Origin: Bifidobacteriaceae bacterium
GTDB taxonomy: Bacteria; Actinomycetota; Actinomycetes; Actinomycetales; WQXJ01
NCBI GenBank assembly: GCA_031281585.1
Contig: JAITFE010000025.1
Span: forward strand, 1-45,280
DNA length: 45,280 bases
Direction of reading: 5' to 3'
Shown: positions 10,440-32,615 of the stretch, piece by piece
Numbering within the stretch: position 1 is the first letter of the stretch
How the letters are laid out: every line of letters begins with the position of its first letter
Translations under genes and position numbers: made by a program
The notes under the pieces: generated by a model
Told to the model about the DNA's origin: nothing
Databases searched by the model: none
What the model saw: only the letters and a program-made list of their open reading frames with translations

Positions 10440-13400
10440 ATGCGTGGTTTCTCGGGTGTTGGTCGTGGTTTGGGTTTTGCGGTGTTGGGATTGTCGCTGG
10501 TGTTGGGGTTGCTGGCGGCAGCCATCCCAGCGCTGGCGGAGGGTTCTGACCCGGAGTTTGTACGAGTCGAGGTGCCGGTGACGGTACAGGTCGTTGATTC
10601 CGGGTCCCCCAATGGCGGCGGCGGCGGTTCGGGCGAGATCGGCGATGGCGGCCAGCCCGGCGAAGGCGGCTCGGGCGACGGTGAGATTGGCGATGAAGGC
10701 TCGGGCGGTCAGGATGGGCTCCCTGGGGACGGCGGCCAGCCTGGCGACGGCGGTTTGGGCGACGGCGGCGCTGATGGCGATGGCGGTTCGGCTGGTGAAG
10801 ATGGGCTGCCTGGTGAAGGCGGTCAACCCGGCGATGGCGGCTCGGGCGAAGCTGGCGATGGCGGTTCGGGTGACGGGGACGCTGATGGTGAGGGCGGTTC
10901 GGTTGGCGCGGATTCGTCGGTTGGGGTGTTGCCGTTCACTGGTTCCGGGTTGTGGGCTGCTGGTTTGGCGGTGTTGCTGGTCGGCGCGGGCGTGACGATT
11001 CTGGTTGTGAGGGCCGGGACTGGCCGGGGCGTGCGGCTGGCGGCCGGGGTTCTTCTGAGCGTGGGCGTTGTCGCCGGCGTGGGCGGCGTGGTGGCCGCGT
11101 CGGCGGAGCCCGCAGGGCCCTCGGCGGCGGACGGCGTGGTTGTAGTGGTGGACAAGGGCGTGTCGTTGACGGGCCGCGCGACCGTGGGGTTGGATGTGGC
11201 CGGGCTGGGCTCGAAGGTGGTCGGGGTGGACCAGGCTATCGAGGCCGGCTTTGCCGAGTTTTCGGTCAACGGTGTGGGCGTGGGCGCGTCGGCCTCGCGC
11301 GTCGCGGAGGTCGCGGACAAGGACTTCGACGGCCGGTTGGAGCTTGTTCTGGAGGTCGCGGTCGACCCGGACTTGCCGGTGGGGACCTATCAGGCCGCCT
11401 CGGTGGTGGAGGCCTTCGACGAGCGCGTGGTGGTCGAGGCAGTGGAGGCCGCGTTCGCCCCGAAGCAATACGACGGGACGGATGCCCTGCTGCCAACGGC
11501 GGCCCCGGTGGTGGTCGGAGTCGCCGATGGCGATGAGGTGGCGCTGGAGGGTTTGGGATTCTCGGCCGCGGGCGTTGAAGCCGCCGCCGGGCAGTCCGTG
11601 ACGGCGCGCGCGGATGGCTTGTCCGGCGAGGACGCCTGGCGCTACCGGCTGGCCAGCCCCGTGTTGCGGGTGGTGGCCCCTGGCGGGTCGGATGAGGACG
11701 GCGAGGAGCGGGCCCCGGCGGTGGCCGCGATCGTCCCGAGGGAACTGGTGGTGGCCGGTCTGGCCGCCGAGGACAGGGTTTACGACGGCACCGACGCCGT
11801 GTCGTTGACCGGGCGACCGGCGCTGGGCGGCGTTGTCGGCGACGACAAGGTGTTCGTGACCGGCACGCCGTCCGCCAGGTTTGAGTCGAAGGACGCGGGC
11901 GCGGACAAGGCCGTGGCGTTCGATCTGGGCTCATTTGCCCTTGAGGGCGCGGACGCGGCGAATTACGTGCTGCGCTCGCCGCAGTTGACCGCGTCGGTCG
12001 CCCCGAAGCCCTTGGGGGTGACCGGTTTGGCCGCCCAGGACAAGACTTACGACGGGGCCGTCGAAGCCACCATCACCGGCGATGCCGTCTTGGTCGGCGT
12101 CGAGGCGGCCGACCAGGTGACGCTCGGCGGCGTTCCGAAGGGCGAGTTCGACTCGAAGTCCGCCGGCGATGGCAAAGCCGTCGCCTTGGACGCCGATGCC
12201 GTGCGGCTGGCGGGCGCCGACGCCGGCAACTACACGTTCGACCTGCCGGGGCTGACGGCATCGGTCACGCGGCAAACTCTGACGGTGGCCGGTTGGACGG
12301 CCCAGGACAAGGTCTACGACGGCACCCAAGACGCCCACTTCTCCGGGACCGGATCCCTGGTCGGCGTGGTGGCCGGGGACCAGGTGTCGCTGACGGGCGC
12401 GCCCTTCGGCGCGTTCGACTCGAAGGCGGCTGGCGCGGACAAGCCCGTGACGGTGGACCCCGCATCGGTCGGCCTGGCTGGCGCAGACGCCGCCAACTAC
12501 GTGCTGGACGTGGCTGGCGAGCACACGGCATCGGTCGCCGTGAAAGAAGTGACCGTTGACGGTCTGGCAGCCGAGGACAAGACTTACGATGCCGCCGTGG
12601 ACGCCTCGTTCACGGGCGCGGCCGTCTTGGTCGGCGCGGTGACCGGCGACGACGTGGCGGTCCAGGGAGCGCCGTCAGGCCGGTTCGACTCGAAGAACGT
12701 GGGCGACGTGAAGGTGGTGACCCTGGACGAGGGCTCGCTGACCCTGGCCGGCGAGGACGCCGCCAACTACGCGCTGGCCCTGCCGGAACTGACCGCGGCG
12801 GTCGCCCCGAGGGAACTCGGGGTGGCCGGTTTGGCCGCCGAGGACAAGATCTACGACAGAACCGAGGCCGCCTCGCTGACGGGCGCCGGGTCCCTGGTCG
12901 GCGTGGTGGACGACGACCTGGTGTGGCTGGCGGGCGCGCCGGTGGGCGTGTTCGACTCCGCCGCCGCCGGGGAGGGCAAGACCGTCACGGTCGACCCGGA
13001 CGCGTTGAGCTTGGCCGGCGAGGACGCACAAAACTACACGTTGCGACTGCCCCAACTGACCGCGTCGGTGGCCCCGAAGGGCTTGAGCGTCGCGGGCTTG
13101 ACGGCCAACGGGAAGGTCTACGACGGGACGGCGGACGCCTCGTTCGCGGGAGAGGCCTCGCTGACGGGCGTGGTGGACGGCGATGCCGTCTCGCTCGAGG
13201 GCGCCCCGGTCGGCGCGTTCGACTCGGAGGACGCCGGCGCCGACAAGGCTGTGACGCTCAGCGCCGATTCGTTCGCGCTAACCGGCGAGGACGCGGCCAA
13301 CTACACGCTGGGCCTGCCCGAACTGCGGGCGTCCATCACCCCGAAGCGGGTCGACGTGACCGGCTTGACGGCGGTGGACAAGGTCTACGACGGTTCGGCG

Positions 13401-16559: not shown

Positions 16560-19500
16560 ATGCGTGGGTTGTCGGTCGCGGCACGGGGTTTGGGCTTCGC
16601 GTTGCTGGGGTTGTTGTTCTTCTTCGCCTTGTTGGTCGCGGCTGCGGCCCCCGCGCAGGCGGATGGATCCGATGCGGGCTCGTTGCAGGTCGAGGTGCCG
16701 GTGACGGTCCAGGTGATCGACTCCGGCCAGCCGGAGGAGGGCGCGACCGGCGGCGACGAGGGCGAGGCGGAGGGCGGTCTGCCCGACGGCGGCGACAGCG
16801 GGGCTGAAGGCGAAGATTCTACGGCCGGGGGCGAGGACGCGGCCGGTGGCGACGGCGACCCGGCGGAAGGCGGCGAGGATTCGACCGCAGGTGGCGAAGA
16901 TGCGACTGGTGGCGAAGACGCGACGGGTGGCGAGGATGCGACTGGCAGCGAGGACGCGGCCGATGGCGACGGTGCGGCCGGTGGCAGTTTGCCCGGTGGC
17001 GATGGTCCTTCGGCTGGAGTGTTGCCGTTCACCGGGTTTGGTTGGGACGCGGCCGCCTTGGCTTTGCTGCTGGTGGCCGCGGGGCTCGCGGTTTTGGTCG
17101 CTCGGCGGCGCCCGGCACGCGGCGTGCGGGTGGCGGCCGGGGTGCTCCTGGGCGTGGCTGTGATGGCTGGAGTTGGCGGGGTGGTGGCCGCGTCGGCGGA
17201 GCCGGCCAGCGACGACGGCCTGGTGGCCGGCTCTGCGGGGACGGCTGGCGACGGCGGCGTGGCGAGCGCGGACCGGGTGGTTGTGGTTGTGGACAAGGCG
17301 GCGTCCCTGTCGGGGGCCTCGGTCGTCGGTTTGGATGTGGCGGGGTTGGAGTCGAAGGTGGTCGGGGTGGACCAGGTGGTCAACGCCGACTTCGAGGCGG
17401 AGTTCTTGGCGGACGGCAAGGCTGTGGGCGGTTCGCCGGTGCGTGTCGTCCAGGTGGCGGACAAGGACTTCGACGGCCGGTTGGCGGTCGACCTGGAGGT
17501 GACGGTCGATGAGGGCCTGCCGGTGGGGGTGTATGAGGCGGTTTCGACGTTCGTGGCCGTTGACGACCGGGCGGTGATCGGCGCGGTCGAGGCTGCGTTC
17601 GCGCCGAAGGAGTACGACGGGACTGATGTGCTGGTTCCGGCGGGGGAGCCGGTGCCGGTAGGGGTGGCCGCCGACCACGACGTGGTGTTGGACGGCCTAG
17701 GCTTCACCGTCGGCGGGGTTGACGCGGCGGCTGGCCTGCCGGTGGCGGGCCACGTGGAGGGTTTGTCCGGGGAGGACTCGTGGCGTTACCGGTTGGCGGC
17801 CCCGGTGTTGAAGGTTGTCGCCCCCGGGACCGGGGATGGCGGCCAGGACGGCGGCGACGGCGGCGGCGACGGCGTGGACGGCGGCGAGGGCGGCGCGGAG
17901 GCGCCGGTGGTGGTCGCGGTTGTGCCGAGGGAACTTGAGGTTGTCGGTTTGTCGGCCGAGGACAAGGTCTACGACGGGACTGACGCTGTCTCATTAGCGG
18001 GCACCCCGGTGCTGTCCGGGTTGCTCTCCGGCGATGACGTGTCGTTGGCCGGATCGGCGTCCGCCACGTTCGAGTCAAAGGACTCCGGGAGCGGCAGGAT
18101 CGTGGTCGTGGACCGGGGTTCGTTGCGGTTGGAGGGCACGGACGCTTCGAACTACGCGCTGCGGGTCCCGCAGCTGCGGGCCGACATCGCGCCGAAAACG
18201 TTGGCGGTGGCGGGTTTGGCCGCCCAAGACAAGGATTACGACGGGTCCGCGGACGCGGCGATCGCCGGGACGGGGTCCTTGGTCGGCGTGGTCGAAGGCG
18301 ACCAGGTGTCCCTGGCGGGCGCCCCGGCCGGCCGGTTCGACTCGAAAGCCGCAGGCGAGGGCAAGACGGTGGCGCTGGACGCCGACTCGCTCGGCCTGGC
18401 GGGCGCGGACGCCGCCAACTACGCGCTGGAATTGCCGGAGTTGACTGCGGCCATCGCCCCGAAGCGGTTGGCCGTAGAGGGCCTGGCCGCTCAGGACAGG
18501 GTGTACGACGGCTCTGTGGTCGCCTCGTTCACCGGCTCGGCGGTGTTGGCGGGCGTGGAGGCCGGCGATGCCGTCACGCTCACGGGCGCACCGGTCGGCA
18601 CGTTCGCATCGAAGGAGGTGGGCGACGGCAAGACCGTCACCCTGGACGCCGACTCCGTTGGCCTGGCGGGCGCGGAGGCTGCCAACTACGTGTTGGACAC
18701 GGCGGGCGACTACACGGCATCGGTCACCCCGGCGGTGGCGACCGTCGAAGGTCTGACGGCCGAGGACAAGATCTACGACGGGTCGCGGGACGTTGCGTTC
18801 GCGGGCGAGGCTTCGCTCGCCGGGATTCTGGACGGCGATGCCGTGTCGCTCAAGGGCGCCCTGTCAGGCGTTTTCGCTTCGAAGGACGCCGGGAACGACC
18901 AGGCCGTGACGCTCGACGCGGACTCGTTCGTGTTAGCCGGCGCGGACGCCGACAACTATCTGTTGAGCCTGCCCGAATTGCGGGCCTCGATCGCCGCGAA
19001 ACGCGCCGATGTGGCCGGTTTGACCGCTGTGGACAAGGTCTACAACGGGTCTGCGGAAGCCATGTTCGCCGGGTCGCCGGTGCTGGTCGGGGCGGTTGAG
19101 GGAGACCTGGTGCACCTGGCCGGGGCGCCGTCCGGAGAGTTCGACACAAGGGACGCCGGGGCGGGGAAAACCGTCACGCTGGCGCCAGGCGCGTTTCGGC
19201 TGACCGGCGGCGACGCCCCCAACTACGTGCTGCGCCTGCCCGCCTTCGAGGCGTCGATAGCCCAGAGGGAAGCTGCGCTCGGGGGCCTGACGGCCCTCGC
19301 CAAGACCTACGACGGCTCCCGTGACGCCCAGATCGCGGGGAAACCCGTGTTGGCGGGCGTGGTCGAGGGTGACGTGGTGTCGGTCCAAGGCGCGGCCGCA
19401 GGGGCGTTCGACTCCAAGAACGTCGGTCAGGGTAAGACTGTGACGCTGGAGAAGGGGTCTTTGACCCTGTCCGGCGCGCATGCGGGCAACTACGCGCTGG

Positions 19501-22214
19501 TCTTGCCGGCGCTGAAGGCGTCGGTGGCGCGGGCGGAGGTGACCGTGGGGGGTTTGGCGGCCGAAGACAAGGTCTACGACGGGACCAAGAAAGCCTCGTT
19601 CTCCGGCCCGGCTGCGCTGGTGGGCAAGGTCGCTGGCGACAAAGTGTCGCTGGAAGGCACTCCCACAGGGACATTCGCCTCGAAAGACGCTGGGACCGGC
19701 TTGAGCGTCGCGCTGGACGCCGCCTCGTTGAGTTTGGTTGGCGAAGACCGGGGCAACTATGCCTTGAAAATGGCAGGCGACTACTCGGCATCGATCAACG
19801 CCCGTCCGGTGACCTACACCGGATCGGTCAAAGCCGACCGGGAACTTGGCGACGCGAACCCCTCCGGTTTCAGCCTGCGAATCGACAACTGGACCGCCTT
19901 CGCGGACGTGGTCGCAGGTGAGGCGCTTACTCTAGTCGCCAGCGGGGTCACCGAGGTCGTTCCGGCCAACGGCGTGTTTGACGTGGAGGGTGTTTCGCCG
20001 GCAGCGGTGACCGGAGCCTTTGGATTTGAGGCCGGCTATGGCGTCAAGGCCCAGAACTATGCGCTAGTCGAGCAGCCGACCGTCCAGGTGGAGGTCGCCA
20101 TGACGCAAATCGTTCTGGGGGTCACGATCACCGAGCCGGAGCAGCAGGTGACTTTGTCGAAGTACTTCTCGAACGGATACACCGTGGACTGGGGGGATGG
20201 GGCGACGGATTCCGTGTCGGTGTGGGATTCGAACTCGTTGACCCACGTCTACGCTGACGCCGACACCTATCAGGTCCGGCTGAAATCCACCACGTCCGGA
20301 ACGCAGCGGTGGAGCTTCCGGAATGCCGGGAAGGCTCTTGTCCCCAGACAAGGCACGACCGCGCAAGAAGTGGTTATAAGGGAGTTCCCGGAACTTCGTT
20401 GGTTCACTGCGAACGGAAGAGCGCCTGCAAGCAACTTCTTCGCTGACTTCAACAATGAGGGCGCGCTGACCGGCTTGCCGGATGGCTCCTTCGACACCAG
20501 CGGGATTGAGGCCGCCGCAGACGGGTTCTTCAGGGCATTCAACTATGGCGGGAACCTGGCGCGCCTGCCGGAGGGCTCTTTCGACACGTCTGCGATCACT
20601 TCGGCGGGATATCAATTCTTCGCCGAGTTCAACGGCCACGGCCCGTTGACGGAACTGCCCGATGGGTCGTTTGACACCGGGAGCCTCAAGACAGCCGGGG
20701 GGGAGTTTTTCGCGCGGTTCAACGAGCAGGGCAATCTGGTAGGCCTCCCTCGCGGTTCGTTCGACATCAGCGGAATCACTGCGGCGCCGACGGGCTTCTT
20801 CGCGAATTTCAATCTGTATGGAACTCTGCGGGAGTTGCCGGCGAACTCGTTCGACACCGGCGGCATAGCGGCGGTGGCGGGCCGGTTCTTCGCCTACTTC
20901 AATTACTACGGGAGTTTGACGCGCTTACCTGAGGGGTCGTTTGAGACGGGCGGCATCACCTCAGCTGGAGCCGAGTTCTTCTACCGCTTCAACAGCGGGG
21001 GTAAACTTGAAGAGCTGCCTGACGGGTCATTCAACACTAGCGGCATAGAGTCGGTTGGGAAGTCCTTCTTCGCGCGTTTCAACGACTGGGGCGCGCTGAC
21101 CAAACTGCCCGAAGGCTCGTTCGGGACGCAACAGATCGTAATTGCGGCCGACGAATTCTTCAGCGGTTTCAACACCGGCGGACCCATCAATACGCTGCCG
21201 ACTGGTTCGTTTATGACTGACGCAATAACCTCGGCGGGTTCGGGCTTCTTCGCCAGCTTCAACTCTAGCGGCGCCTTGACCGGGCTGCCGGCTGGCTCGT
21301 TCAACACGAGTAACATCACGTCGGTCGGCAAGGACTTCTTCGCGTTGTTCAACGCGTACGGCGCGCTTGAGGAGTTGCCGACCGGATCCTTCGATCTGAA
21401 GGGCATCCGCGAGGCTGACGACGGCTTCTTTCAGCGTTTCAACATGAACGGGGCGAAACTGGTTGAACTACCCGCTGGCTCGTTCCAGATCACGAATATC
21501 GAGTCAGTGAAGAGAGACTTCTTTTCTTGCTTCAATGACAGCGGGAGCTTGACAACGCTCCCTGAAGGCTCCTTCAACACGGGCGCGATCACGTCGACGG
21601 GATACGGCTTCTTCTACGCCTTCAACGCTGGCGGCAGCCTAGTGCGGTTGCCTGACCACTCCTTCACGAATGAGAGCGTTAGCTCAGTGGACCAGGCCTA
21701 TTTCTCATACTTCAACTACCGGGGTTCTCTAGTGGAGTTGCCCGAGGGGTCATTTGCCGAGAGGAACATCGTGTCGGCCCCAGAGAGCTTCTTCGCCGGT
21801 TTCAACTCCGAAGGCGCCTTGACATCGCTGCCGGAGGGTTCATTCAACATTGACAACATCGAGTCGGTTGGCAACGCCTTCTTCTTGACCTTCAACTCCT
21901 ACGGGGCACTGGAGAGCCTGCCGGAGGGTTCGTTCAACTCCAGCAGGTTGGTGTCGGTAGGAGAGAACTTCTTTTGGCGCTTCAATACCAACGGCAAGTT
22001 GAGAACGCTGCCGGCTTCGTTCATGTGGCCGAAACTTGATCAAGCGGAGGTCGACAAGCGGAATAACTTCGAATACGCGTTTTCGAGTGGAACCACGCTG
22101 CTCAGCGACGTCGGTCGCATTGTGAACGGTTGCGCGGCCCCGAGCGAGCAGCGCCACGTGTTCAGTTCGAACCAGCCAGGGGCGGAGGATCTGGAACTGA
22201 CCTGGCGGACGTGA
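16560..22214 (+). CDS. Giant surface protein 2: same architecture, fewer YDG and many more LRR repeats
   Basis: The product has 1884 aa. Order of parts: signal peptide (1-34, AQA|D); segment LQVEVPVTVQVIDSG shared with protein 1; acidic repeats such as GGEDATGGEDATGS (about 58-150); LPFTG at 155-159, hydrophobic helix 161-181, then RRR; second hydrophobic helix (190-210) with ASA|E at 213/214; a linker domain with a degenerate YDG unit; seven YDG/MBG-type repeats (YDG motifs at 471 to 1006); a TVDWGDG PKD-like domain (near 1209); about 18 repeats of 30 aa (1292-1832); and a tail with one Cys matching protein 1. No C-terminal anchor is present. The last 53 bp overlap the convergent Gmd-like gene. 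The start follows GGGAGGG. Confidence 0.9.
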   Translation: MRGLSVAARGLGFALLGLLFFFALLVAAAAPAQADGSDAGSLQVEVPVTVQVIDSGQPEEGATGGDEGEAEGGLPDGGDSGAEGEDSTAGGEDAAGGDGDPAEGGEDSTAGGEDATGGEDATGGEDATGSEDAADGDGAAGGSLPGGDGPSAGVLPFTGFGWDAAALALLLVAAGLAVLVARRRPARGVRVAAGVLLGVAVMAGVGGVVAASAEPASDDGLVAGSAGTAGDGGVASADRVVVVVDKAASLSGASVVGLDVAGLESKVVGVDQVVNADFEAEFLADGKAVGGSPVRVVQVADKDFDGRLAVDLEVTVDEGLPVGVYEAVSTFVAVDDRAVIGAVEAAFAPKEYDGTDVLVPAGEPVPVGVAADHDVVLDGLGFTVGGVDAAAGLPVAGHVEGLSGEDSWRYRLAAPVLKVVAPGTGDGGQDGGDGGGDGVDGGEGGAEAPVVVAVVPRELEVVGLSAEDKVYDGTDAVSLAGTPVLSGLLSGDDVSLAGSASATFESKDSGSGRIVVVDRGSLRLEGTDASNYALRVPQLRADIAPKTLAVAGLAAQDKDYDGSADAAIAGTGSLVGVVEGDQVSLAGAPAGRFDSKAAGEGKTVALDADSLGLAGADAANYALELPELTAAIAPKRLAVEGLAAQDRVYDGSVVASFTGSAVLAGVEAGDAVTLTGAPVGTFASKEVGDGKTVTLDADSVGLAGAEAANYVLDTAGDYTASVTPAVATVEGLTAEDKIYDGSRDVAFAGEASLAGILDGDAVSLKGALSGVFASKDAGNDQAVTLDADSFVLAGADADNYLLSLPELRASIAAKRADVAGLTAVDKVYNGSAEAMFAGSPVLVGAVEGDLVHLAGAPSGEFDTRDAGAGKTVTLAPGAFRLTGGDAPNYVLRLPAFEASIAQREAALGGLTALAKTYDGSRDAQIAGKPVLAGVVEGDVVSVQGAAAGAFDSKNVGQGKTVTLEKGSLTLSGAHAGNYALVLPALKASVARAEVTVGGLAAEDKVYDGTKKASFSGPAALVGKVAGDKVSLEGTPTGTFASKDAGTGLSVALDAASLSLVGEDRGNYALKMAGDYSASINARPVTYTGSVKADRELGDANPSGFSLRIDNWTAFADVVAGEALTLVASGVTEVVPANGVFDVEGVSPAAVTGAFGFEAGYGVKAQNYALVEQPTVQVEVAMTQIVLGVTITEPEQQVTLSKYFSNGYTVDWGDGATDSVSVWDSNSLTHVYADADTYQVRLKSTTSGTQRWSFRNAGKALVPRQGTTAQEVVIREFPELRWFTANGRAPASNFFADFNNEGALTGLPDGSFDTSGIEAAADGFFRAFNYGGNLARLPEGSFDTSAITSAGYQFFAEFNGHGPLTELPDGSFDTGSLKTAGGEFFARFNEQGNLVGLPRGSFDISGITAAPTGFFANFNLYGTLRELPANSFDTGGIAAVAGRFFAYFNYYGSLTRLPEGSFETGGITSAGAEFFYRFNSGGKLEELPDGSFNTSGIESVGKSFFARFNDWGALTKLPEGSFGTQQIVIAADEFFSGFNTGGPINTLPTGSFMTDAITSAGSGFFASFNSSGALTGLPAGSFNTSNITSVGKDFFALFNAYGALEELPTGSFDLKGIREADDGFFQRFNMNGAKLVELPAGSFQITNIESVKRDFFSCFNDSGSLTTLPEGSFNTGAITSTGYGFFYAFNAGGSLVRLPDHSFTNESVSSVDQAYFSYFNYRGSLVELPEGSFAERNIVSAPESFFAGFNSEGALTSLPEGSFNIDNIESVGNAFFLTFNSYGALESLPEGSFNSSRLVSVGENFFWRFNTNGKLRTLPASFMWPKLDQAEVDKRNNFEYAFSSGTTLLSDVGRIVNGCAAPSEQRHVFSSNQPGAEDLELTWRT
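17924..19800 (+). repeat. Seven tandem YDG/MBG-type repeats
   Basis: These are the same ~89-codon modules as in surface gene 1, with motif variants YNGS (unit 5) and LAKTYDGS (unit 6). The array is five units shorter than in the paralogue. Confidence 0.87.
20433..22052 (+). repeat. About eighteen tandem 90-bp BspA-like leucine-rich repeats
   Basis: The consensus is FFAxFNxxGxLTxLPEGSFxTSxITSAGx, with strict 30-aa periodicity except one 31-aa unit (GAKLVELPAGSF). There are three times as many units as in the paralogue, and the units are more diverged from one another. Confidence 0.85.
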
Positions 22215-23160
22215 TGTCCGCCTGGACCATGCGGGCCACCATGCCGGCGAAGTCCACTGTGGGCGCCCAGCCCAGTTCGCGGCGGGCTTTGGCTGGGTCG
22301 CCCACCAGCAGGTGGGGGTCGGCCGGGCGCGCCAGCGCCGGGTCGACCTCCACGTGAGCCCGCCAGTCCTCAACGCCGACGCAGGCGAACGCCTCACGGG
22401 CCAGGTCCGCGACTGAGTGGGCCTGGCCCGTGGCCACCACATAGTCGGCCGGCTCCGGGTGCCTGACCGCGCGGACCATCGCGTCCACGTAGTCGGGCGC
22501 CCAACCCCAGTCACGCCGTGCGTCCAGGTTTCCCAGGCGCAAAACGCCGCCGCCGCGCTCCGCTATCAGGGCCGCCCCGGCCGTGATCTTCCTGGTCACA
22601 AAGCTGAGCGGTCGCCGGGGCGACTCGTGGTTGTAGAGGATGCAGGCGACCGCGAACAAGCCCTTGGCGCGGTACGCCTCGACCATGAAATGCGCGTACG
22701 CCTTGGCGGCCCCATAGGGGCTGACCGGCGCGATCGGAGTCGCCTCGGTTTGGGGCGAGTCCTTGGGGGACCCGAAGATTTCCCCGCTGGACGCCTGCAG
22801 CACGCGCACGCCGCGCCCCGTGCGCCTTTGCAGTTCCCACGCCGCCTCGAAAACCGCCGCCGCGCCGGTCCCGTTGACCCGCCCCGTCGTCAGGGGGTCC
22901 TCCCAGGATTGCGCCACCGAGGAGACGCCCCCCAAGTTGTAGATCTCATCCGGTTCCAGCGCCCGGATCAGTTCCGCCACGCTCCCCGGCTCGGCCAGGT
23001 CGCCAGCGTGGATCCGCACGCCCGCCGGGACGAACCGCGTCTCGTTTTCCGATGCCGTGTCGAGCACCGTGCCGTGCACGTCCATTCCCTCGCCCAACAA
23101 CCGCTCGCTGAGGTAGGAGCCGTCCTGGCCGCCCACGCCGGTGATCAGCGCGACACTCAT
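22162..23160 (-). CDS. GDP-mannose 4,6-dehydratase-like protein (paralogue)
   Basis: This 332-aa extended SDR has the NAD(P)-binding motif GVGGQDG near the N-terminus. Gmd-family signatures follow: ASSGEIFG, SPYGAAKAYAH (Tyr and Lys of the catalytic pair), NHESPRR, FVTRKI and GNLDARRDWGWAPDYV. In E. coli Gmd the first motif is S-T-S-E; here it is S-S-G-E, keeping the glutamate. It lies 18 bp downstream of a second, more canonical gmd and is surely co-transcribed. It may act on a different sugar nucleotide or as a downstream reductase in GDP-deoxysugar synthesis; sequence alone does not decide. Its 3' end overlaps the convergent surface gene by 53 bp, giving a tail (VPDPPPLAGSN) not typical of the family. 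Confidence 0.82.
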   Translation of the reverse strand: MSVALITGVGGQDGSYLSERLLGEGMDVHGTVLDTASENETRFVPAGVRIHAGDLAEPGSVAELIRALEPDEIYNLGGVSSVAQSWEDPLTTGRVNGTGAAAVFEAAWELQRRTGRGVRVLQASSGEIFGSPKDSPQTEATPIAPVSPYGAAKAYAHFMVEAYRAKGLFAVACILYNHESPRRPLSFVTRKITAGAALIAERGGGVLRLGNLDARRDWGWAPDYVDAMVRAVRHPEPADYVVATGQAHSVADLAREAFACVGVEDWRAHVEVDPALARPADPHLLVGDPAKARRELGWAPTVDFAGMVARMVQADITSARSVPDPPPLAGSN

Positions 23161-23178
23161 CGGGTGCCCCCCTTATGC

Positions 23179-24171
23179 CTATTTGGCGGCCAGCTTCGCT
23201 TGGGATTCCAAGTCCGAGTCCACCATCATGGCCACCAGCGTTTCGAAATCGACCTCCGGGCGCCAGCCGAGGACCCGGCGCGCCTTCGACGAGTCGGCCA
23301 CCAGGCGGTCGACCTCCGCTGGCCGGAAGAAGCGCGCGTCTTGTTCCACATACGGCGACCAGTCGTCAATCCCGACATGGCCGAAGGCCTGGTCCAGCAG
23401 GTCCCGGATCGAGCGGGTCTGGCCGGTGCCGATCACGTAGTCGTCGCCCTGCGGTTGCTGGAGCATCAGCCACATTGCCCGCACATAGTCCCCGGCGAAA
23501 CCCCAGTCGCGCTCCGCGTCCAAGTTGCCCATGACCAGTTTGTCTTGCAGCCCCAGTTTGATGCGGGCCACCGCCAAGGACACCTTGCGGGTGACGAACT
23601 CCGGGCCTCGCCGGGGCGACTCGTGGTTGAAGAGGATGCCGCTGGAGGCGTGCATCCCGTAGGACTCGCGGTAGTTGATAGTCATGTAGTGGCCGAACAC
23701 CTTCGCCACGCCGTAGGGCGAGCGCGGCCAAAGGAGGGTCGTTTCCCGTTGCGGCACCTCTTGTACCTTCCCAAACATCTCCGAGCTGGACGCTTGGTAG
23801 AAGCGGACGGCGTCCACGGCATCGCCGGCGAAAAGGCGGACGGCCTCGAGGAGGTTCAACACGCCGATCCCCGTCACGTCGGCGGTGACGTGGGCGTTGT
23901 CCCACGAATAGGCGACGTAGGAAATGGCGCCCAGGTTGTAGACCTCGCTCGGCTGTGAGATGTCGAGGACCCGCCGGAGCGACGACTGGTCCGTCAAGTC
24001 GCCCTGGACAATGCGCACCTCGGGAACGGTGCGGGCGACCAACTCGGCCTTGGGGTTCTGTTGCCCGCGGACCAAGCCGAAGACTTCGTATCCTTTGCTG
24101 AGCAGCAATTCGGCCAGGTAGAGGCCGTCCTGGCCGGTGACACCGGTGATGAGGGCATTGGGCACGCGCAC
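23179..24171 (-). CDS. gmd: GDP-mannose 4,6-dehydratase
   Basis: Gmd converts GDP-mannose to GDP-4-keto-6-deoxymannose, the precursor of GDP-fucose, GDP-rhamnose and related sugars for polysaccharides. The 330-aa protein has [15 protein letters not shown] for cofactor binding, the catalytic block [21 protein letters not shown] with Tyr and Lys, [21 protein letters not shown] and [16 protein letters not shown]. All are close to the canonical family. It is the first gene of a two-gene operon with the adjacent paralogue and lies just downstream of the LCP gene on the same strand. No GMER/WcaG-type epimerase-reductase is visible unless the paralogue fills that role. Confidence 0.9.
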
Positions 24172-24197
24172 AAGGGTACCCCGAACTCGCGCGCGGC

Positions 24198-25676
24198 CTA
24201 CGGCGTGCCGTCAAGCACGGCGTTGATCTTCGCCTTGGCGTTGTCCACTGTCGCCTGGTCGGGAATCATGACGTAGAGCCGCTGCGCCCCCATCGAATAG
24301 GTGGGCTCGCTGGCGCCCTGCCCGTCCACGCTGACCGATTCGACCTGCCACGACTTGCCGTCCTCAAGACGTTGGCGGACCACGGAGGTGATCTGGTCCA
24401 TCGGGACGTTCATCTCCAGGGCGCCGTCAAGGGCGTCCAGGAGCTTGTCGTAGCGGAGCAGGTTGGAGCGCTGCGACGCCTTGTCGATCAAGGCGGCGAT
24501 CACCTTCTGTTGATTCTGGCCGCGGGTGCGGTCGCCGGCGGCGAAGGAATAGCGCTCCCGGCTGAACCCGAGGGCCTGCTCGCCGTTCATGTGGTTGACG
24601 CCCGTGGTGAAGGTGAAGTTCCCGTGGCGCGAGGTGAAAGCCTGGTCAACATTCACATCGACCCCGCCCAATGTGTCCACAATCTTCACCAATGATGAGA
24701 AGTTCACGCGGGTGTAGTAGTCGATTTGGATTCCGTAAAGGTCCTCCAGCGTTTCGATCGACTTCTGCACGCCGTAGATGCCGGCGTGGGTCAGCTTGTC
24801 TTTGGTGCCGGTGGTGCCGTGGAGTTGCACGTAGTAGTCGCGCGGAGTGTTGACCAGGACCACTTGGCCGGTGTCCGGGTTGACCGCCATGAGCATGTTC
24901 ACGTCGGAGCGCGACACCCGGTTGATCGGCCCGGCGGTGTCGATTCCGGAGATGTACACCACGAAGGAGGAACCGGCGGGTTTGGGGCTGGCGCTGGGCG
25001 GCGCCGCCACGGGGGCCGCGTCTAGGTCGAAGGTGTAGATGATCTGGATTGAGTCGTAGAAGTCCGGGTCGGACTCCTCGTAGATGGCGAGGAAGCTGGA
25101 GTCGAGCACGGCGGCGTCGAACCCCTTCGCCGTGAGGCCTGCCGCCAATTCGGTCGGGTCGGCGCATTGGGTGAAAGATGAGTCGAACTTGCTTTGCAGT
25201 TTCAGCTCTACGGCCTGTCGGTTCACGTCATTGGCGAGTTCGCCAATGCTCTCGCGCTTGAGCGAGCTTTCGGCTGGGTCGTGGTCCTGCAGCGCAATCA
25301 CGACGTATTCGCTCTTGGGCTGCACAGGCCTTGCTCGGTTGACAAAGCCTTCCACGTCGGAGACGGCTTTCACGCCCACCGCCGATGCCGCTATGCCCAG
25401 TAACGCGACCAGGCTCAGCGCGGTGAACCGGAACCAGGAAGGCGGCGCGTGGGTGCGCCACAGGGCGACCGCCACCAGCCCCGCCACCAGGACCGCCACG
25501 AAACCCGTTCCGGCCAGCCACGGCACGGGCAGAACGCCGAACCGGCTCAGGGCGACCAGGCCCACCACCACGGCCACCCCGAGCGCCGTCGCCAGCACCC
25601 GTGCGACCCAGCGCGGGAAGCGGCCGCCAGCAGCACCAGAACTGGCTTGTTCCACGGCGTCCGGTCTTGCTCTCAC
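24198..25676 (-). CDS. LytR-CpsA-Psr (LCP) family cell-wall glycopolymer ligase
   Basis: LCP proteins transfer lipid-linked glycopolymers to peptidoglycan at the outer face of the membrane. The 492-aa protein has three or four N-terminal hydrophobic helices (about 25-125) and a CpsA-like accessory domain (about 140-245). The LCP catalytic domain then shows [51 protein letters not shown] and [23 protein letters not shown], so the conserved Arg and Asp residues are intact. The GTG start has AAAGGGG 8 nt upstream. Its position in this cluster suggests that it anchors the polysaccharide made by the neighbouring genes. Confidence 0.92.
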
Positions 25677-25842
25677 GTTTGTAGCCCCTTTGAATCCCTC
25701 TAGTCACTTGTGTTTACGCAACGTCGCCCGTTTGGTGGGGCATGGTGCCCGCTGACGTTCCCCGAGCTTCCCGGTCGCCTTGGGTTCCGACAATAGCGCG
25801 TCGGAACAAAGGCGAAGTCGTTCGTGATCCCGGCGAGCCGGG

Positions 25843-26646
25843 TCATTTTCCCCGGCGGCCTTGCCTCAAACTGGCTGCGGCGACCCCCAAGAATCGGGGA
25901 CCCTCCACCAGGTAACGCCGCGCCAGGCGCCTGGGCTCTTGGGCAAGGCGCCAGGCCCACTCGAGGCCAAGGCTCTGCGTCCACTTCGGAGCCCGCCGCA
26001 CAACTCCGGCGGCAAAGTCCACGGCCGCTCCCGCGCCCACGTAGACGCCCGGCGGGAGGGTGTCGCGCCATTGGCGGAACCACAACTCCTGTTTCGGCGC
26101 GCCCAGGCAGATGAACACGACCGAAGGACGAAAAGCGCCCAGTTCCCCCACCACGTCCGCAGATCCTTGATCGGCGGCCGAACGCAGCACCGGGAGGCCA
26201 AAGCCCCGGATCGCTGCCCCGTGCGAGATTTCGGTGAGACGCTCGGCGGCTTTCGCCGCAATTCCGGGGGCGCCGCCGACCAGCGCGACTTTCCAACCGC
26301 GCGCGTTCGCGGCGCGAGTCACCTGGAAGATCAAGTCGGCGCCCGTGTTTCGCCACGGTTTGGCCAGACCCATCAACCGGGCCAGCACCACCAGGGGCAT
26401 GCCGTCAATAGTTCGCAGTGAGGCCGCCTGGTAAGCGCTGCGGTAGGCCGGGTTTTCCTGCAGGTCCAAGACTTGGTTCACGTTCAGCGTGGTCACCAGG
26501 TGCCTGTCTCCGTCTTTCGCCAACTCGTCGATCCGGGCAAGCAAGGCGTTCGGGCTCCCGCTGAACACGGCCTGCCCGTACAGCCTGAGCACGCCTTCAG
26601 ACACTTCGAAGCGCGCTGGCCGGCGGCCGCGACCGTTTGCAGTCAT
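25843..26646 (-). CDS. WecG/TagA/CpsF family glycosyltransferase (GT26)
   Basis: This 267-aa cytoplasmic enzyme belongs to GT26, which adds ManNAc or a related sugar to an undecaprenyl-diphosphate-linked acceptor. Visible motifs are TLNVNQV (family Thr), DGMPLV (family Asp near residue 82), GADLIFQV, VALVGGAPG, FICLGAPKQE and VGAGAAVDFAAGVVRRAPKW, followed by the membrane-associating C-terminal block LGLEWAWRLAQEPRRLARRYL. Length is normal. It is the only clearly cytosolic, non-initiating glycosyltransferase in the cluster. The gene lies between the LCP and polymerase genes in the same direction, with 166 bp and 88 bp gaps. Confidence 0.92.
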   Translation of the reverse strand: MTANGRGRRPARFEVSEGVLRLYGQAVFSGSPNALLARIDELAKDGDRHLVTTLNVNQVLDLQENPAYRSAYQAASLRTIDGMPLVVLARLMGLAKPWRNTGADLIFQVTRAANARGWKVALVGGAPGIAAKAAERLTEISHGAAIRGFGLPVLRSAADQGSADVVGELGAFRPSVVFICLGAPKQELWFRQWRDTLPPGVYVGAGAAVDFAAGVVRRAPKWTQSLGLEWAWRLAQEPRRLARRYLVEGPRFLGVAAASLRQGRRGK

Positions 26647-26734
26647 TCAGGCAAGATTACACGGGCGCCTTTTGTTTCCGGTGGCGCCCCGCTGCGGACC
26701 GGAGGCTTTCCCACGGAGAGCGGCCAACTGCGGG

Positions 26735-28393
26735 TCAGCCTTGTTTGGGGCGAACGCTGCGGCGCACAGTCATCCGACTGGCGGCTTTGTCTGATTTGCC
26801 GCCCAGCTTCGAGGCCCTTCGGCGCGGCGGGGCCGGGCTGTGTTCGGGCTCGGCCAGCAAGGCTGCGGAAATGAGCAGCGGGCCCGCCACCAACGGTCCC
26901 AACATGGACTCTGCGATGGCTGCGGTGCCGATCCAAGTGCCGAGGAGCGCCGCAGACTGTCGGCCCAGCATGCGGGCGAGGAGAGCCACAACGACCACGA
27001 AGAGGATCAGGCCCGGCAACCCGATTTGGTAGGCCATGACCCCCAGCCCGGACTCGCTGCCGGTTTCAAGGGTTCCAATCACGGACGCCGGCGCGCTGGA
27101 ATCTTCGTTGAGGACGTCGAACAGCCTGCCGAAGTTTCCCCCCTCGCCCAAATGGTGCCCCAACGGCTGGCTCAAAGCGCTCCGGACGCCCAGCACCAGG
27201 CCGGACCAGTGAATCGAAGAGCTGTCGCCCCGGATCAGGGAGGCGGGGTCGCTGAAGGCGTGGACCACGGCGCCTCGGTAGAGGACGGTCATGTATGTCA
27301 AGGTGGCGAGGGCCACCATGGCCGGGGCCGCCGCCACGACTTTTGCTCGCCACGCCGGCCGCTGGCCCAGGCCGTACAGCGCGAAGCCCAGCACCAGCAG
27401 CAAAGGCGCCATCTTCACGCCGGAGAGGAAGCAGGCAATGCCGGCTCCCATGATTACCAGGCAAAAGCGCACAACGCCAAGAGCCCCCAGGCGGGACCGC
27501 TCTTCGGGACTTGACGAGGCGGAGAACCACAGCATGGCCGCCGCGAGGACGGTGCCCGAAGCGATGTATCCGGCGGTCACGGGTTCGCCTAGAAAACCGC
27601 CGATCCGTTCGATCTTGATGCCGAACAGCGGCGTGGAGGTCGACAAAGAAGAGAGCGAGGCAAGGGTCTCGGTGCCCATGAAGCCGCGCCATCGCGAGGT
27701 GCCGACCATTTCCTCGATCATCGCCCCGGCGAACAACGCGCTTGCCAGAAACGACAGCCAACTGCCAAGGATCTGGTTCTTCCTCTCCCGCTGCCACGTT
27801 CGCGTCCTGGCCGCCACCAGCAAGAGGACCAGGATTGGCAGGGCGAAGTTCCGCCCGTAGGCCAGCGCGCTGGGCGCCAGGGACCGCAGGTTGATCGCCA
27901 TGCACGCGAAATACGCGGCCAGCACCCAAAGCACCGGGCGCAGCCGGGAGAGGTAGTTCCAAACCGCAGGAGCACAGGCGGCCGCGGCCACCAAAGCGGA
28001 CAGCGTCTTCGCCTCTGTCACGGCCAAAGGCGCTTCCTCTTGCACAAGTCGGAACCAGAGCCCGGAGATGAAGTTTTGGCTCATGGCAAGCACCAGCCAG
28101 TAATACAGGTAGGCGTCAAAAGCGCGCCGCGCCATCAGCGCGGACGCGACCACCGTGACAAGGCAGCTGATGACCAACCCGACCGTTGGCAATATGGGGG
28201 CCAGGACCGCCGGAACGCCGTAGGTGACCGTCGCGAGAGCCCCGCCCCAGCAAAGCGCCGGCACCGCGTCCACAGGCACGGAGTCGACCTGGCGTAACCA
28301 CCGAACGCGCAGGCGCTCGCGACGGCGGCCGGGGGGCTTTCCCCCGGCCGCAGCCTGGCGCGTTGCCGCCGCAGGCCGATCGTTCAATGCCAT
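26735..28393 (-). CDS. Wzy-like O-antigen/exopolysaccharide polymerase
   Basis: This is a polytopic membrane protein of 552 aa with about 11-12 hydrophobic segments and a long extracytoplasmic loop (roughly residues 350-430) before the last helices, as in Wzy/O-antigen-ligase-like proteins. I see FLGEPVTAGYIASG and the loop segment HHLGEGGNFGRLFDV, similar in character to the weakly conserved Wzy regions. The assignment rests on topology and gene context (flippase, Wzz, initiating transferase) rather than strong motifs. The Arg-rich cytoplasmic N-terminus precedes the first helix. I used ATG 28393, which has GGAGG 12 nt upstream; an upstream in-frame start at 28444 cannot be excluded. Confidence 0.75.
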   Translation of the reverse strand: MALNDRPAAATRQAAAGGKPPGRRRERLRVRWLRQVDSVPVDAVPALCWGGALATVTYGVPAVLAPILPTVGLVISCLVTVVASALMARRAFDAYLYYWLVLAMSQNFISGLWFRLVQEEAPLAVTEAKTLSALVAAAACAPAVWNYLSRLRPVLWVLAAYFACMAINLRSLAPSALAYGRNFALPILVLLLVAARTRTWQRERKNQILGSWLSFLASALFAGAMIEEMVGTSRWRGFMGTETLASLSSLSTSTPLFGIKIERIGGFLGEPVTAGYIASGTVLAAAMLWFSASSSPEERSRLGALGVVRFCLVIMGAGIACFLSGVKMAPLLLVLGFALYGLGQRPAWRAKVVAAAPAMVALATLTYMTVLYRGAVVHAFSDPASLIRGDSSSIHWSGLVLGVRSALSQPLGHHLGEGGNFGRLFDVLNEDSSAPASVIGTLETGSESGLGVMAYQIGLPGLILFVVVVALLARMLGRQSAALLGTWIGTAAIAESMLGPLVAGPLLISAALLAEPEHSPAPPRRRASKLGGKSDKAASRMTVRRSVRPKQG

Positions 28394-28740
28394 GTGGTGT
28401 CGGGACCTCCAATTTCGCCCAGCCGGCCGCAGGCCGCTGCACACCTAGGATACGTGGCTCCCAAGTGACTGGCTGGGATGTGCCGCCCTGGCGGCGAGGG
28501 CAAGGCGCGCCTGTCTTCGCCGGTTCCCGGCGAGCGGCCACAAGGAGCGGCGTTCGCGTCTAGTATTCTCGTTTGTCGTGCCCGTAGCCTTTCAGCCGCC
28601 GTCCGGACCGGAAGCGCGCCCAGGGACGCTGGGTGGGCTATCGCACCAGGCGGTGGCGAACCGCATGCGTCTGAGCCCCGCTCAGACCTTGCGACGGCCG
28701 TCCGCCCAACACGCGCCTGGCAGTTCGGGAAGGGGTAACA
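28394..28740. other. Divergent intergenic region between the Wzy-like and Wzz-like genes
   Basis: These 347 bp should contain the promoters of both arms of the polysaccharide locus. I see -10-like hexamers (TATTCT near 28564 on the plus strand, TATCCT near 28450 on the minus strand) but no matching -35 elements. No gene, terminator or clear operator is evident. Confidence 0.5.
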
Positions 28741-29898
28741 ATGAGTTTTCGTGACGGGCTCCTTGTGGTGCGCAAGTTTTGGTGGCTGATCCTTGTGGGC
28801 CTTGTCGCGGGCGTGGCGGTCGGCTATCAGACGTTCACGGCTCAACCCGCGACCTACACGGCCAGTTCCAATGTGATCGTTGGCTGGTATGGCGCCGACC
28901 GCGTGACTCATTACTCCAACACCTGGGCGGCCCAGGTCCTGGCGATGGGCTTGGACGAGGAAGACTACCGAGCGGCGGCCGAAGCCGGGGGACTGGATCT
29001 CGAGCTGGTCGACCTGGAGCAGGCCATCAGAATCTCGCAGACCCCAGACGAGGCGAGAATCGAGGCGTTTGTCGACGCGAATGAGCCTGCGGCCGCCCGC
29101 GCCGCCGTGGCGGCGGTGATCACCGCCGTGACGGACAACGTCAAGGAGTTGGCGGGGGCAGGCGGGCGCGGCGCCGTCTATGTTCCGGGGCCGGTCACGG
29201 CGGAACTCACCTCCGCGCCGGGCCCGAGTCTGGCCAGCCAGATGGCGACCGGCGGGATCCTCGGGTGCGCCCTGGGGTTTGTCCTGGTGGGGGTGGCATA
29301 CTTCGCCCGGCGAACCGTGCTCAGCTCTGACACCATGCGGGAGTTCGGGCTGCCCGTCTTCGGCACGCTTGCCAGTTCCCGGCCACGTGCCTCACGGATC
29401 CCGGTGCCGGAGGAAAGCCGGGTTCTTGAGAAGATCAGGCTGGCCCTGCGAGCCGACTCGGTGCGGTTCCTGCTGATGATGTGTTCGAGCGCCGCAGATG
29501 TGGCGGCAATCGCCGAGTCTGGCGCCGCGTCGCGCCTCGCGGCCGTCATGGGGCCGGATGCCGTCATCGTGGCGGGGAAGGGGAAGGTCGGCGAAGAGAT
29601 CGTGCAGTCTTTGGACGAATTGCCGCTTGTGCCCTGGCTGGAACAGCGGGTGTTGCTGACCCCCGAGCTGATGGCTTCCGGCCGCGCCGCGCGCCAACTG
29701 CTCGCCCATTCGGCCACTCGGCCGGTGTTGTTCGTTTGCGACGCCGAGCCAATCGCCCTGTCTGCGGCAAGCCTGACGCAGAGCGTGCTGCTCGCCGCAG
29801 TGCCCGGCAAGACCAGAATCACCAGCCTTCGCCAACTTGGCGTTGATCTGGAACTGACAAACAGCCACCCGATCGGCGCCGTGCTGGTCAAGGCCTGA
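28741..29898 (+). CDS. Wzz/YveK-like chain-length determinant with a degenerate, kinase-less C-terminal domain
   Basis: The 385-aa protein has a helix near residues 13-30 (FWWLILVGLVAGVAVGY), an extracytoplasmic alpha/beta region, and a second helix near 165-190 (GGILGCALGFVLVGVAYFA). This is the Wzz fold that sets polysaccharide chain length. The C-terminal ~190 residues sit where BY-type tyrosine kinases have their ATPase domain, but I find no Walker A or B motif and no Tyr-rich tail. It may be a decayed or regulatory domain. The start has AAGGGG 5 nt upstream. It is the first gene of the plus-strand arm of the cluster. Confidence 0.78.
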   Translation: MSFRDGLLVVRKFWWLILVGLVAGVAVGYQTFTAQPATYTASSNVIVGWYGADRVTHYSNTWAAQVLAMGLDEEDYRAAAEAGGLDLELVDLEQAIRISQTPDEARIEAFVDANEPAAARAAVAAVITAVTDNVKELAGAGGRGAVYVPGPVTAELTSAPGPSLASQMATGGILGCALGFVLVGVAYFARRTVLSSDTMREFGLPVFGTLASSRPRASRIPVPEESRVLEKIRLALRADSVRFLLMMCSSAADVAAIAESGAASRLAAVMGPDAVIVAGKGKVGEEIVQSLDELPLVPWLEQRVLLTPELMASGRAARQLLAHSATRPVLFVCDAEPIALSAASLTQSVLLAAVPGKTRITSLRQLGVDLELTNSHPIGAVLVKA

Positions 29899-29923
29899 CG
29901 GTCGAGCGGGCTTTTGCTATGGT
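29895..29923 (+). promoter_or_regulatory. Candidate sigma-70-type promoter
   Basis: CTGACG (29895-29900), a 17-bp spacer, then TATGGT (29918-29923), preceded by TGC as in an extended -10 element. The -35 overlaps the stop codon of the Wzz-like gene. It would drive the acyltransferase and downstream genes, with a leader of about 70 nt. Confidence 0.4.
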
Positions 29924-30002
29924 GGGCGTTTCGCGGATGGCTGTACTCCGAATTCCGGTCGCGGCGGAGGCGCACAAGACCCCGGATTGGAGATTCTGAA
30001 AG

Positions 30003-31130
30003 GTGACGGTGGATTCCAATCGCGTGCGCCCGCTGGCCAATCGCCTGGGACGTTACGCCCATATCGACGCACTGCGGGCCTACGCGGTTCTCGTGGTGGT
30101 GGTCTCCCACCTTTGGCCCGACCTGGCGGTGCCTGGCGGCAGCGGCGTGACGCTGTTCTTCGCCATCTCGGGTTTCGTCATCACGCTGGTGACATTGAAA
30201 GAATTCGACAGAACGGGCGGGTTCTCCGTTCGCGGGTTTTATTGGCGCCGTTGCCTCAAGATAATCCCGCCTTTTGTCGCGATAATCGCTGTGCCCACGC
30301 TGGTCTATGCGGTCTTTCGGCCGGTCAACTGGGGAAGGTTTCTGAGCCAGGTCTTCTTCTTCTACAACTGGACACGAGAGCCGGAAGGACCCGGCGTTCT
30401 GCCCGGATCAGGCGTGACCTGGAGCCTGGCGATCGAGGAGCAATTCTATATCGCGTTCGCGTTGGCTTGGCTCTGGCTTGTCCACCGAAGTGGTCGCCCC
30501 ATAAGGGTTCTGGCCTACGGAGCGGTCGTCATGTCGTGCCTTGCGATCACGGAGCGTTTTGCCTTCGCCTTCGCCGGCGCCTCATGGGAGCGTTCCTACT
30601 ATGGGACTGACACCCGGCTCGACTCAATCGGGATCGGCGTTCTGACGGCGATTGTCTTTTACCGGAAACTGGCCAACAACCTCTGGAGACGGGTGTCGGC
30701 CATCTTCCGCAGCGACTGGATGCTCTTGGCGATGATCATGCTCTACCTGGCTTCGGTGGCGGTGCGCAACGACATGTTCAGGGACACAATCCGCTACACC
30801 GCGCAATCCGCAGTCGCATGCGGTCTGATCCTCTACGGCATGCTGCGCCCCAATTCGCCGACCCGGATCCGTCTGGCCTTTGAGAAGGTCGTCTCCGTCC
30901 GGTTTGTGCAGGTGGTCGGATTGTCCAGCTACAGCCTGTACCTGGTTCACGCCCCCGTCTTCCACTTGGTCTCGTTTGTCACCGGGGAGTTCGCCCTGGC
31001 AGGGTTGTGGGCGCTAGTCGTCTCATTCGGCGCGATGGGGTTGGCGATCACCGCGGGATACTTGAGTTGGCGATTGATCGAGACGCCGGCGCTAAGACTG
31101 AAACAACTGTTTTCAAGCGAGCGGACTTGA
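30003..31130 (+). CDS. Acyltransferase 3 family membrane protein (OafA/YrhL type)
   Basis: This 375-aa protein with about ten transmembrane helices would transfer acyl (often acetyl) groups to surface sugars. Family features are the early HIDALRAYAVLVVVVSHLWP (with the catalytic-type His in the first helix), the GVTLFFAISGFVIT segment, the RR pair in FYWRRCLKIIPPF, and WSLAIEEQFYIAF. The C-terminal SSYSLYLVHAPVFH block is also typical. Length is normal without the SGNH extension seen in some relatives. The GTG start at 30003 has GGAG 10 nt upstream. In this cluster it most likely O-acylates the polysaccharide. Confidence 0.9.
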   Translation: MTVDSNRVRPLANRLGRYAHIDALRAYAVLVVVVSHLWPDLAVPGGSGVTLFFAISGFVITLVTLKEFDRTGGFSVRGFYWRRCLKIIPPFVAIIAVPTLVYAVFRPVNWGRFLSQVFFFYNWTREPEGPGVLPGSGVTWSLAIEEQFYIAFALAWLWLVHRSGRPIRVLAYGAVVMSCLAITERFAFAFAGASWERSYYGTDTRLDSIGIGVLTAIVFYRKLANNLWRRVSAIFRSDWMLLAMIMLYLASVAVRNDMFRDTIRYTAQSAVACGLILYGMLRPNSPTRIRLAFEKVVSVRFVQVVGLSSYSLYLVHAPVFHLVSFVTGEFALAGLWALVVSFGAMGLAITAGYLSWRLIETPALRLKQLFSSERT

Positions 31131-31184
31131 TAGCTCCACTGGGGGTAGCGGTGAGTTGCAAGTCGGCGAAAGGTTAGGCGGAAC

Positions 31185-32486: not shown

Positions 32487-32615
32487 GCGGGGGCGCGGCC
32501 CCCACGGCCGGTGGCCTGGACGGCGGCGGCCGCGGAGACGTGGCGCAGGGGAACGGGGGACGGGGAAACGCGGGAAGGCCATCGGCACCAGGGGTTCTTG
32601 GTAGTCTTGGATGCC

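Follow-up and report, generated by a model that had tools for sequence, protein, structure and literature searches.

A sortase-type signal in the interior of two tandem adhesin-like proteins from a Bifidobacteriaceae bacterium, with a proposed split-domain mode of wall anchoring

Sortase signals are understood as C-terminal. In the window that we analyzed (the whole 45,280-nucleotide stretch, positions 1 to 45,280 of contig JAITFE010000025.1, here C25, from a 3.98-Mb draft genome that is 95% complete), two tandem paralogues, P1 (10440 to 16331) and P2 (16560 to 22214), with frames of 1963 and 1884 residues, carry an LPFTG signal close to their N termini, and about 1730 (P2) to 1800 (P1) residues lie C-terminal to it. 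How could such a signal anchor the part of the protein that follows it? We found no relevant paper on mid-protein sortase signals, midcut, or bacterial polyproteins in the open-access literature.

Layout of P1 and P2

Both proteins share one order: signal peptide, beta-strand, acidic linker, LPFTG, a first transmembrane helix (TM1), a basic loop, a second helix (TM2), and ASA↓E (arrows mark candidate cleavage points). A beta-domain, YDG repeats, and then PARCEL-like repeats follow. P2 starts at an ATG at 16560 with GGGAGG upstream. The first-pass annotation had placed its LPFTG at residues 155 to 159, given positions for its two helices, and named RRRPARGVR and ASA↓E; its coordinates and residue numbers proved correct. 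The features are as follows.

16560..16661, + strand: P2 signal peptide 1, residues 1-34, AQA↓D; hydrophobic core and AxA
16680..16718, + strand: P2 conserved beta-strand, residues 41-53, includes VEVPVTVQV; alternating hydrophobics, AlphaFold2
16725..17015, + strand: P2 acidic GGED-type linker, residues 56-152; dN/dS 0.56, pLDDT mostly <50
17022..17036, + strand: P2 LPFTG motif, residues 155-159
17040..17102, + strand: P2 TM1, residues about 161-181, from hydropathy
17103..17129, + strand: P2 basic loop RRRPARGVR, from sequence
17130..17198, + strand: P2 TM2 (about 191-211) and AxA site (ASA↓E, 211-214); proposed internal signal peptide
17259..17579, + strand: P2, first domain of the passenger, a beta-sandwich at about residues 234-340; AlphaFold2, VIA-align
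17937..20009, + strand: P2 YDG repeats (PF18657), E 1e-113
20457..22211, + strand: P2 PARCEL-like repeats, without a C-terminal anchor; TIGR02167 below cut-off
10440..10538, + strand: P1 signal peptide 1
10557..10595, + strand: P1 conserved beta-strand, VEVPVTVQVVD
10602..10925, + strand: P1 acidic GDGG-type linker
10929..10943, + strand: P1 LPFTG motif, residues 164-168
10944..11105, + strand: P1 TM1, basic loop, TM2, and ASA↓E; the block from LPFTG to ASA↓E is residues 164-223
11121..11438, + strand: P1 first passenger domain, aligned to P2

P1 and P2 have the LPxTG, hydrophobic helix, and basic residues of an LPXTG sorting signal but not its C-terminal position, and a scan of both proteins found neither a second LPxTG nor a C-terminal hydrophobic anchor. 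We propose that RRRPARGVR in P2 doubles as the tail of the sorting signal and the n-region of a second signal sequence. The YDG model (PF18657) scores 637 and 372 bits in the two proteins (gathering cut-off, 25). The PARCEL model TIGR02167 gives 18.7 for P1 and 14.1 for P2, both below its cut-off of 30. A relative, L064, passes this model (73.5) and also passes TIGR01167 in mid-protein (17.0 versus a cut-off of 15.9).

The 90 bases upstream of P1 and P2 (10352 to 10439 and 16470 to 16559; TGGAATATGYGGGGCTCT...GGTGCAGCAATT) are also alike, so the duplication included the leader. This shared leader may hold a common promoter or regulatory site; an Rfam search gave no match across the window, leaders included. 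Downstream, at positions 22162 to 34073, a surface polysaccharide cluster adjoins the P1/P2 adhesins; its genes are for two GDP-mannose dehydratase-like proteins, a LytR-CpsA-Psr protein, a WecG/TagA-type glycosyltransferase, an acyltransferase, and a polysaccharide flippase.

Conservation of the internal signal block

The first-pass annotation held that the LPFTG, loop, and second helix are nearly identical in the two paralogues while the acidic linkers differ strongly, and that this argues for a working signal rather than a fusion or assembly accident. The linkers have indeed diverged strongly (41% identity, 22 gap columns). The block from LPFTG to ASAEP (62 codons) is 71% identical, and near-identity fits TM2 (84%) but not the loop (50%); TM1 is about 54 to 66% identical. 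The identities of TM1 and TM2 exceed those of composition-matched shuffles, none of 10,000 of which reached the P1/P2 value.

From a codon alignment of P1 and P2, dN/dS was 0.21 for the block, 0.56 for the linker, 0.30 for the following domain, and 0.34 for the YDG repeats, and a second, region-wise alignment gave 0.205, 0.544, and 0.303 for the block, linker, and domain; these ratios are rough because dS is high (about 0.9 to 1.0). Bootstrap ranges of pN/pS were 0.19 to 0.49 (block), 0.54 to 0.95 (linker), and 0.31 to 0.54 (domain). Nonsynonymous change is therefore clearly reduced in the block relative to the linker, as had been anticipated, but for this pair it is not clearly lower than in the following domain. 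Four more copies, from genomes G015 and G014, show 78 to 86% identity in the block, 54 to 73% in the domain, and 25 to 44% in the linker, and pN was lower in the block than in the domain in all six pairs. Together, these comparisons point to purifying selection on the block.

Twelve homologues, found in eight further genomes of two families, share the layout; nine have LPxTG, one has LAATG, and two have neither. They include copies from the same genus (G009:C29, G005:C188, and G005:C469), the same family (three tandem copies in G015:C34, one each in G015:C35 and G014:C304), and the Propionibacteriaceae (G750, G858, and two in G799). The motif varies among LPFTG, LPVTG, LPLTG, LPYTG, LPDTG, and LAATG, with the hairpin present each time. 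The acidic linker is almost absent from five copies (those of G009, G750, and G858 and the two of G005), whose stretch from signal peptide to LPxTG holds little beyond the strand (e.g., DVSGEVNVLVRVTGGS-LPVTG in G750). The G009 copy has no obvious signal peptide 1.

In other LPxTG loci that we read in genomes of the family, the motif sits at or near the frame end. Additional matches over 1e-5 came from a search of 396 genomes of the order; those readable as LPxTG proteins carry it near the frame end. One of the proteins read, L052, has 79 residues after its LPxTG, yet no second helix. Among 394 genomes drawn evenly from the class, a sampling that can miss rare clades, nothing was found outside the window, and plasmids gave no match. 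The first-look matches L003, L015, and L007 were unrelated membrane or enzyme sequences.

The three tandem split-signal adhesins of G015 (L027, G015:C34:20001-36000) have acidic C-terminal tails and adjoin murC-, murG-, and ftsQ-like genes. In the domain tree, G005:C469 (L028) clusters with the Propionibacteriaceae copies and not with its own genus (support, 80/85), a placement that suggests transfer or old paralogy.

The motif and the sortase also go together to a large extent. A sortase was found in six of the seven motif-bearing genomes searched, the exception being G750 (LPVTG, no sortase match, completeness not given). The genome of P1 and P2 encodes one class E sortase (G000:C158; 240 bits versus an NCBIfam cut-off of 160, with an MTTC catalytic-site motif) and has other LPxTG-anchor matches. 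Class E sortases are known for the LAxTG motif; in G015:C35, LAATG replaces LPxTG while the strand and hairpin are unchanged. Both G799 copies retain the signal peptide, strand, TM1, loop, TM2, and ASA and lack LPxTG, and the G799 genome yielded no PF04203 sortase and no LPxTG-type protein match. This motif-less pair forms one branch of the domain tree, which is unrooted, so that loss of the motif would be the simpler, though not the sole, reading. A second sortase-like protein in the genome of P1 and P2 (L099, G000:C42:5041-5286) apparently lacks the cysteine of TLxTC, has ELMTGDG instead, and may be inactive.

Given the recurring layout, the switch to LAATG with the hairpin kept, and the pairing of motif absence with sortase absence, the P1/P2 signal is likely a working internal sorting signal. 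The earlier reading stands in this respect but was incomplete: the constraint covers the strand, LPxTG, and hairpin without singling out LPxTG, one genome retains the strand and hairpin with no LPxTG, and the conserved N-terminal strand, which hints at the purpose of the internal signal, had been overlooked.

The N-terminal strand and how the adhesin might be held

In a by-eye alignment of the 14 segments that directly follow the signal peptide, all 14 strands have hydrophobic residues at four alternating positions and nearly all-polar residues at two intervening ones. Three strand valines are invariant in a nine-row alignment, as are motif residues L, P, T, and G. Since G799 keeps the strand without LPxTG, the role of the strand is not that of a sortase substrate alone.

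AlphaFold2 models built on nine sequences place this strand with confidence. In the L064 relative, strand residues 2 to 11 have a pLDDT of 94 and residues 46 to 72 (loop and TM2) fall below 50; in the model of P2 residues 36 to 425, strand residues 6 to 18 reach about 95, even though 97 residues of disordered linker and then the hairpin come after them. DSSP calls the N-terminal segment a strand in both models, a call that requires a hydrogen-bonded partner, and all other strands in both models sit behind the hairpin. From DSSP and pLDDT we deduced the pairing: the N-terminal strand is predicted to dock into the first domain behind the hairpin. With VIA-align, the matched range in both models starts in the strand and ends with the first sandwich (about 3 to 302 in the P2 model), and 116 to 120 residues align to EcpA and BPSL1626, compared with about 106 for the domain alone. 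Pilin-like sandwiches, donor-strand pilins prominent among them, are among the best structural matches; according to the tool's own warning, unrelated sandwiches often reach Z scores like those obtained, 5 to 8.6 (best, EcpA, 8.6), and we take these matches as a description of the modeled fold and not as kinship. Foldseek alone gave no match below 1e-3. What is new in this analysis is the retention of the strand in every homologue together with its confident predicted placement, in two homologues, in the domain behind the hairpin.

From the motif, hairpin, strand, linker drift, and sortase, all read from sequence, and the docking, a model prediction, we infer two cuts and a non-covalent anchor. 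The sortase signal, hairpin, and signal peptidase site would interrupt a beta-sandwich between its first strand and the remainder. The hairpin would span the membrane twice, leaving the strand and the large C-terminal part both outside, where they could fold together in cis. Sortase would then cut LPxT↓G and link the C-terminal threonine of the strand to the cell wall, and signal peptidase I would cut at the AxA after TM2, freeing the adhesin from the membrane. The wall-linked strand, by completing the first domain of the adhesin, would hold it non-covalently to the wall like a peg. We lean, if only slightly, toward this split-domain anchoring as the correct account; its weakest steps would be the second cut and the order of the cuts. 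The strand might possibly be donated to a neighboring molecule as well, from P1 to P2 or along a chain.

Should the second cut not take place, the hairpin would stay in the membrane with the strand on the wall, and the protein would bridge the two. AxA is frequent at the ends of Ala-rich helices and so is weak evidence for a signal peptidase cut on its own, and the hairpin is conserved even in motif-less G799, both of which suit such a bridge. It is nonetheless unlikely, given that AxA (SxA once) follows TM2 in all 14 sequences with a varied middle residue and that TM2 with its basic start resembles a signal peptide.

The persistence of strand and hairpin without LPxTG in G799 means that the hairpin has a sortase-independent role, and it would also fit a plain membrane hairpin anchor in which LPxTG is an uncleaved leftover of a fusion. 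We regard this as decidedly unlikely: LPxTG or LAxTG is kept in 12 of 14 sequences despite drifting surroundings, and the motif is missing only in the genome that lacks both sortase and LPxTG-protein matches.

Very unlikely, in our view, is a polyprotein whose two products part, the short peptide fixed to the wall and the adhesin secreted free. One reading frame does hold two complete sets of export signals, but the strand is predicted to dock (pLDDT 94 to 95) and is conserved where the first product is otherwise nearly gone. An accident (recent gene fusion, assembly error, or a separate gene starting within the hairpin) is barely credible, since, for all the resemblance to a fusion of an LPxTG gene with one for a secreted protein, the reading frame is kept in 14 sequences from nine genomes, independent homologues contradict a fusion or assembly artifact, the block appears to be under purifying selection, and, within the hairpin, none of the 14 sequences offers a start codon with a Shine-Dalgarno-like site from which the passenger could be translated.

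Comparison with known anchoring and donor-strand systems

The P1/P2 signal resembles the canonical LPXTG sorting signal in its LPxTG, hydrophobic helix, and basic tail. It differs in lying about 50 to 190 residues from the N terminus across the family and in being followed by a second helix and about 200 to 1800 further residues. Should split-domain anchoring hold, a wall-fixed strand encoded in cis would explain how a mid-protein signal anchors the part downstream of it, and annotation rules that expect a terminal LPxTG would be overlooking real substrates. The midcut-by-XrtH family (NF033207), which belongs to exosortase H, suggests a mid-protein sorting signal by its name alone; P2 is not a member, its score of 9.7 bits being far below the cut-off of 45.

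Donor strands occur in Gram-positive fibers, as in TasA of Bacillus subtilis (PMC9674648), and donor-strand complementation is also found in archaeal threads (PMC9715654). As in these systems and in chaperone-usher pilins, an alternating-hydrophobic strand would complete an Ig-like sandwich in P1 and P2. In those systems, however, a separate subunit donates the strand and a fiber is built, whereas in P1 and P2 one precursor would supply both strand and sandwich, and sortase would attach the strand to the wall.

The closest known parallel is CscD of the WxL/csc clusters, stand-alone LPxTG proteins of 90 to 140 residues with a stretch of 40 to 60 residues before the motif; its authors proposed that the short peptide serves as an anchor for other Csc proteins, by way of unknown interactions, and the role of very short wall-linked LPxTG peptides is an open question in the literature (Siezen et al. 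2006, PMC1534035). Like CscD, the P1/P2 family combines a signal peptide, a short stretch, and LPxTG such that only a short peptide would reach the wall. The stretch before LPxTG is about 17 to 130 residues in the P1/P2 family (longer in the LAATG copy), against 40 to 60 in CscD. Unlike CscD, the peptide is fused in frame, via the second helix, to the protein to be anchored, and a single conserved strand is the only element common to the peptides of the family. WxL and DUF916 domains were absent from P1, P2, and ten neighboring frames.

An actinobacterial genome, G361, encodes a stand-alone 139-residue protein with a signal peptide, a VVVTVEI strand, and LPTTG (L125:6013-6432). Beside it (G361:C6, L125:6013-8273) are two secreted-protein genes that look DUF916- and WxL-like by eye and have no NCBIfam match. 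The 139-residue protein is possibly a trans form of the P1/P2 device.

By analogy, P1 and P2 could be read as a CscD-like peptide fused to its own client. Our broader suggestion, which we advance tentatively and with somewhat less than even confidence, is that two cuts inside one domain constitute a new type of Gram-positive wall anchoring and that short, CscD-like LPxTG proteins may act likewise in trans. If so, the conserved strand of P1 and P2 would provide a testable prediction for CscD-like peptides.
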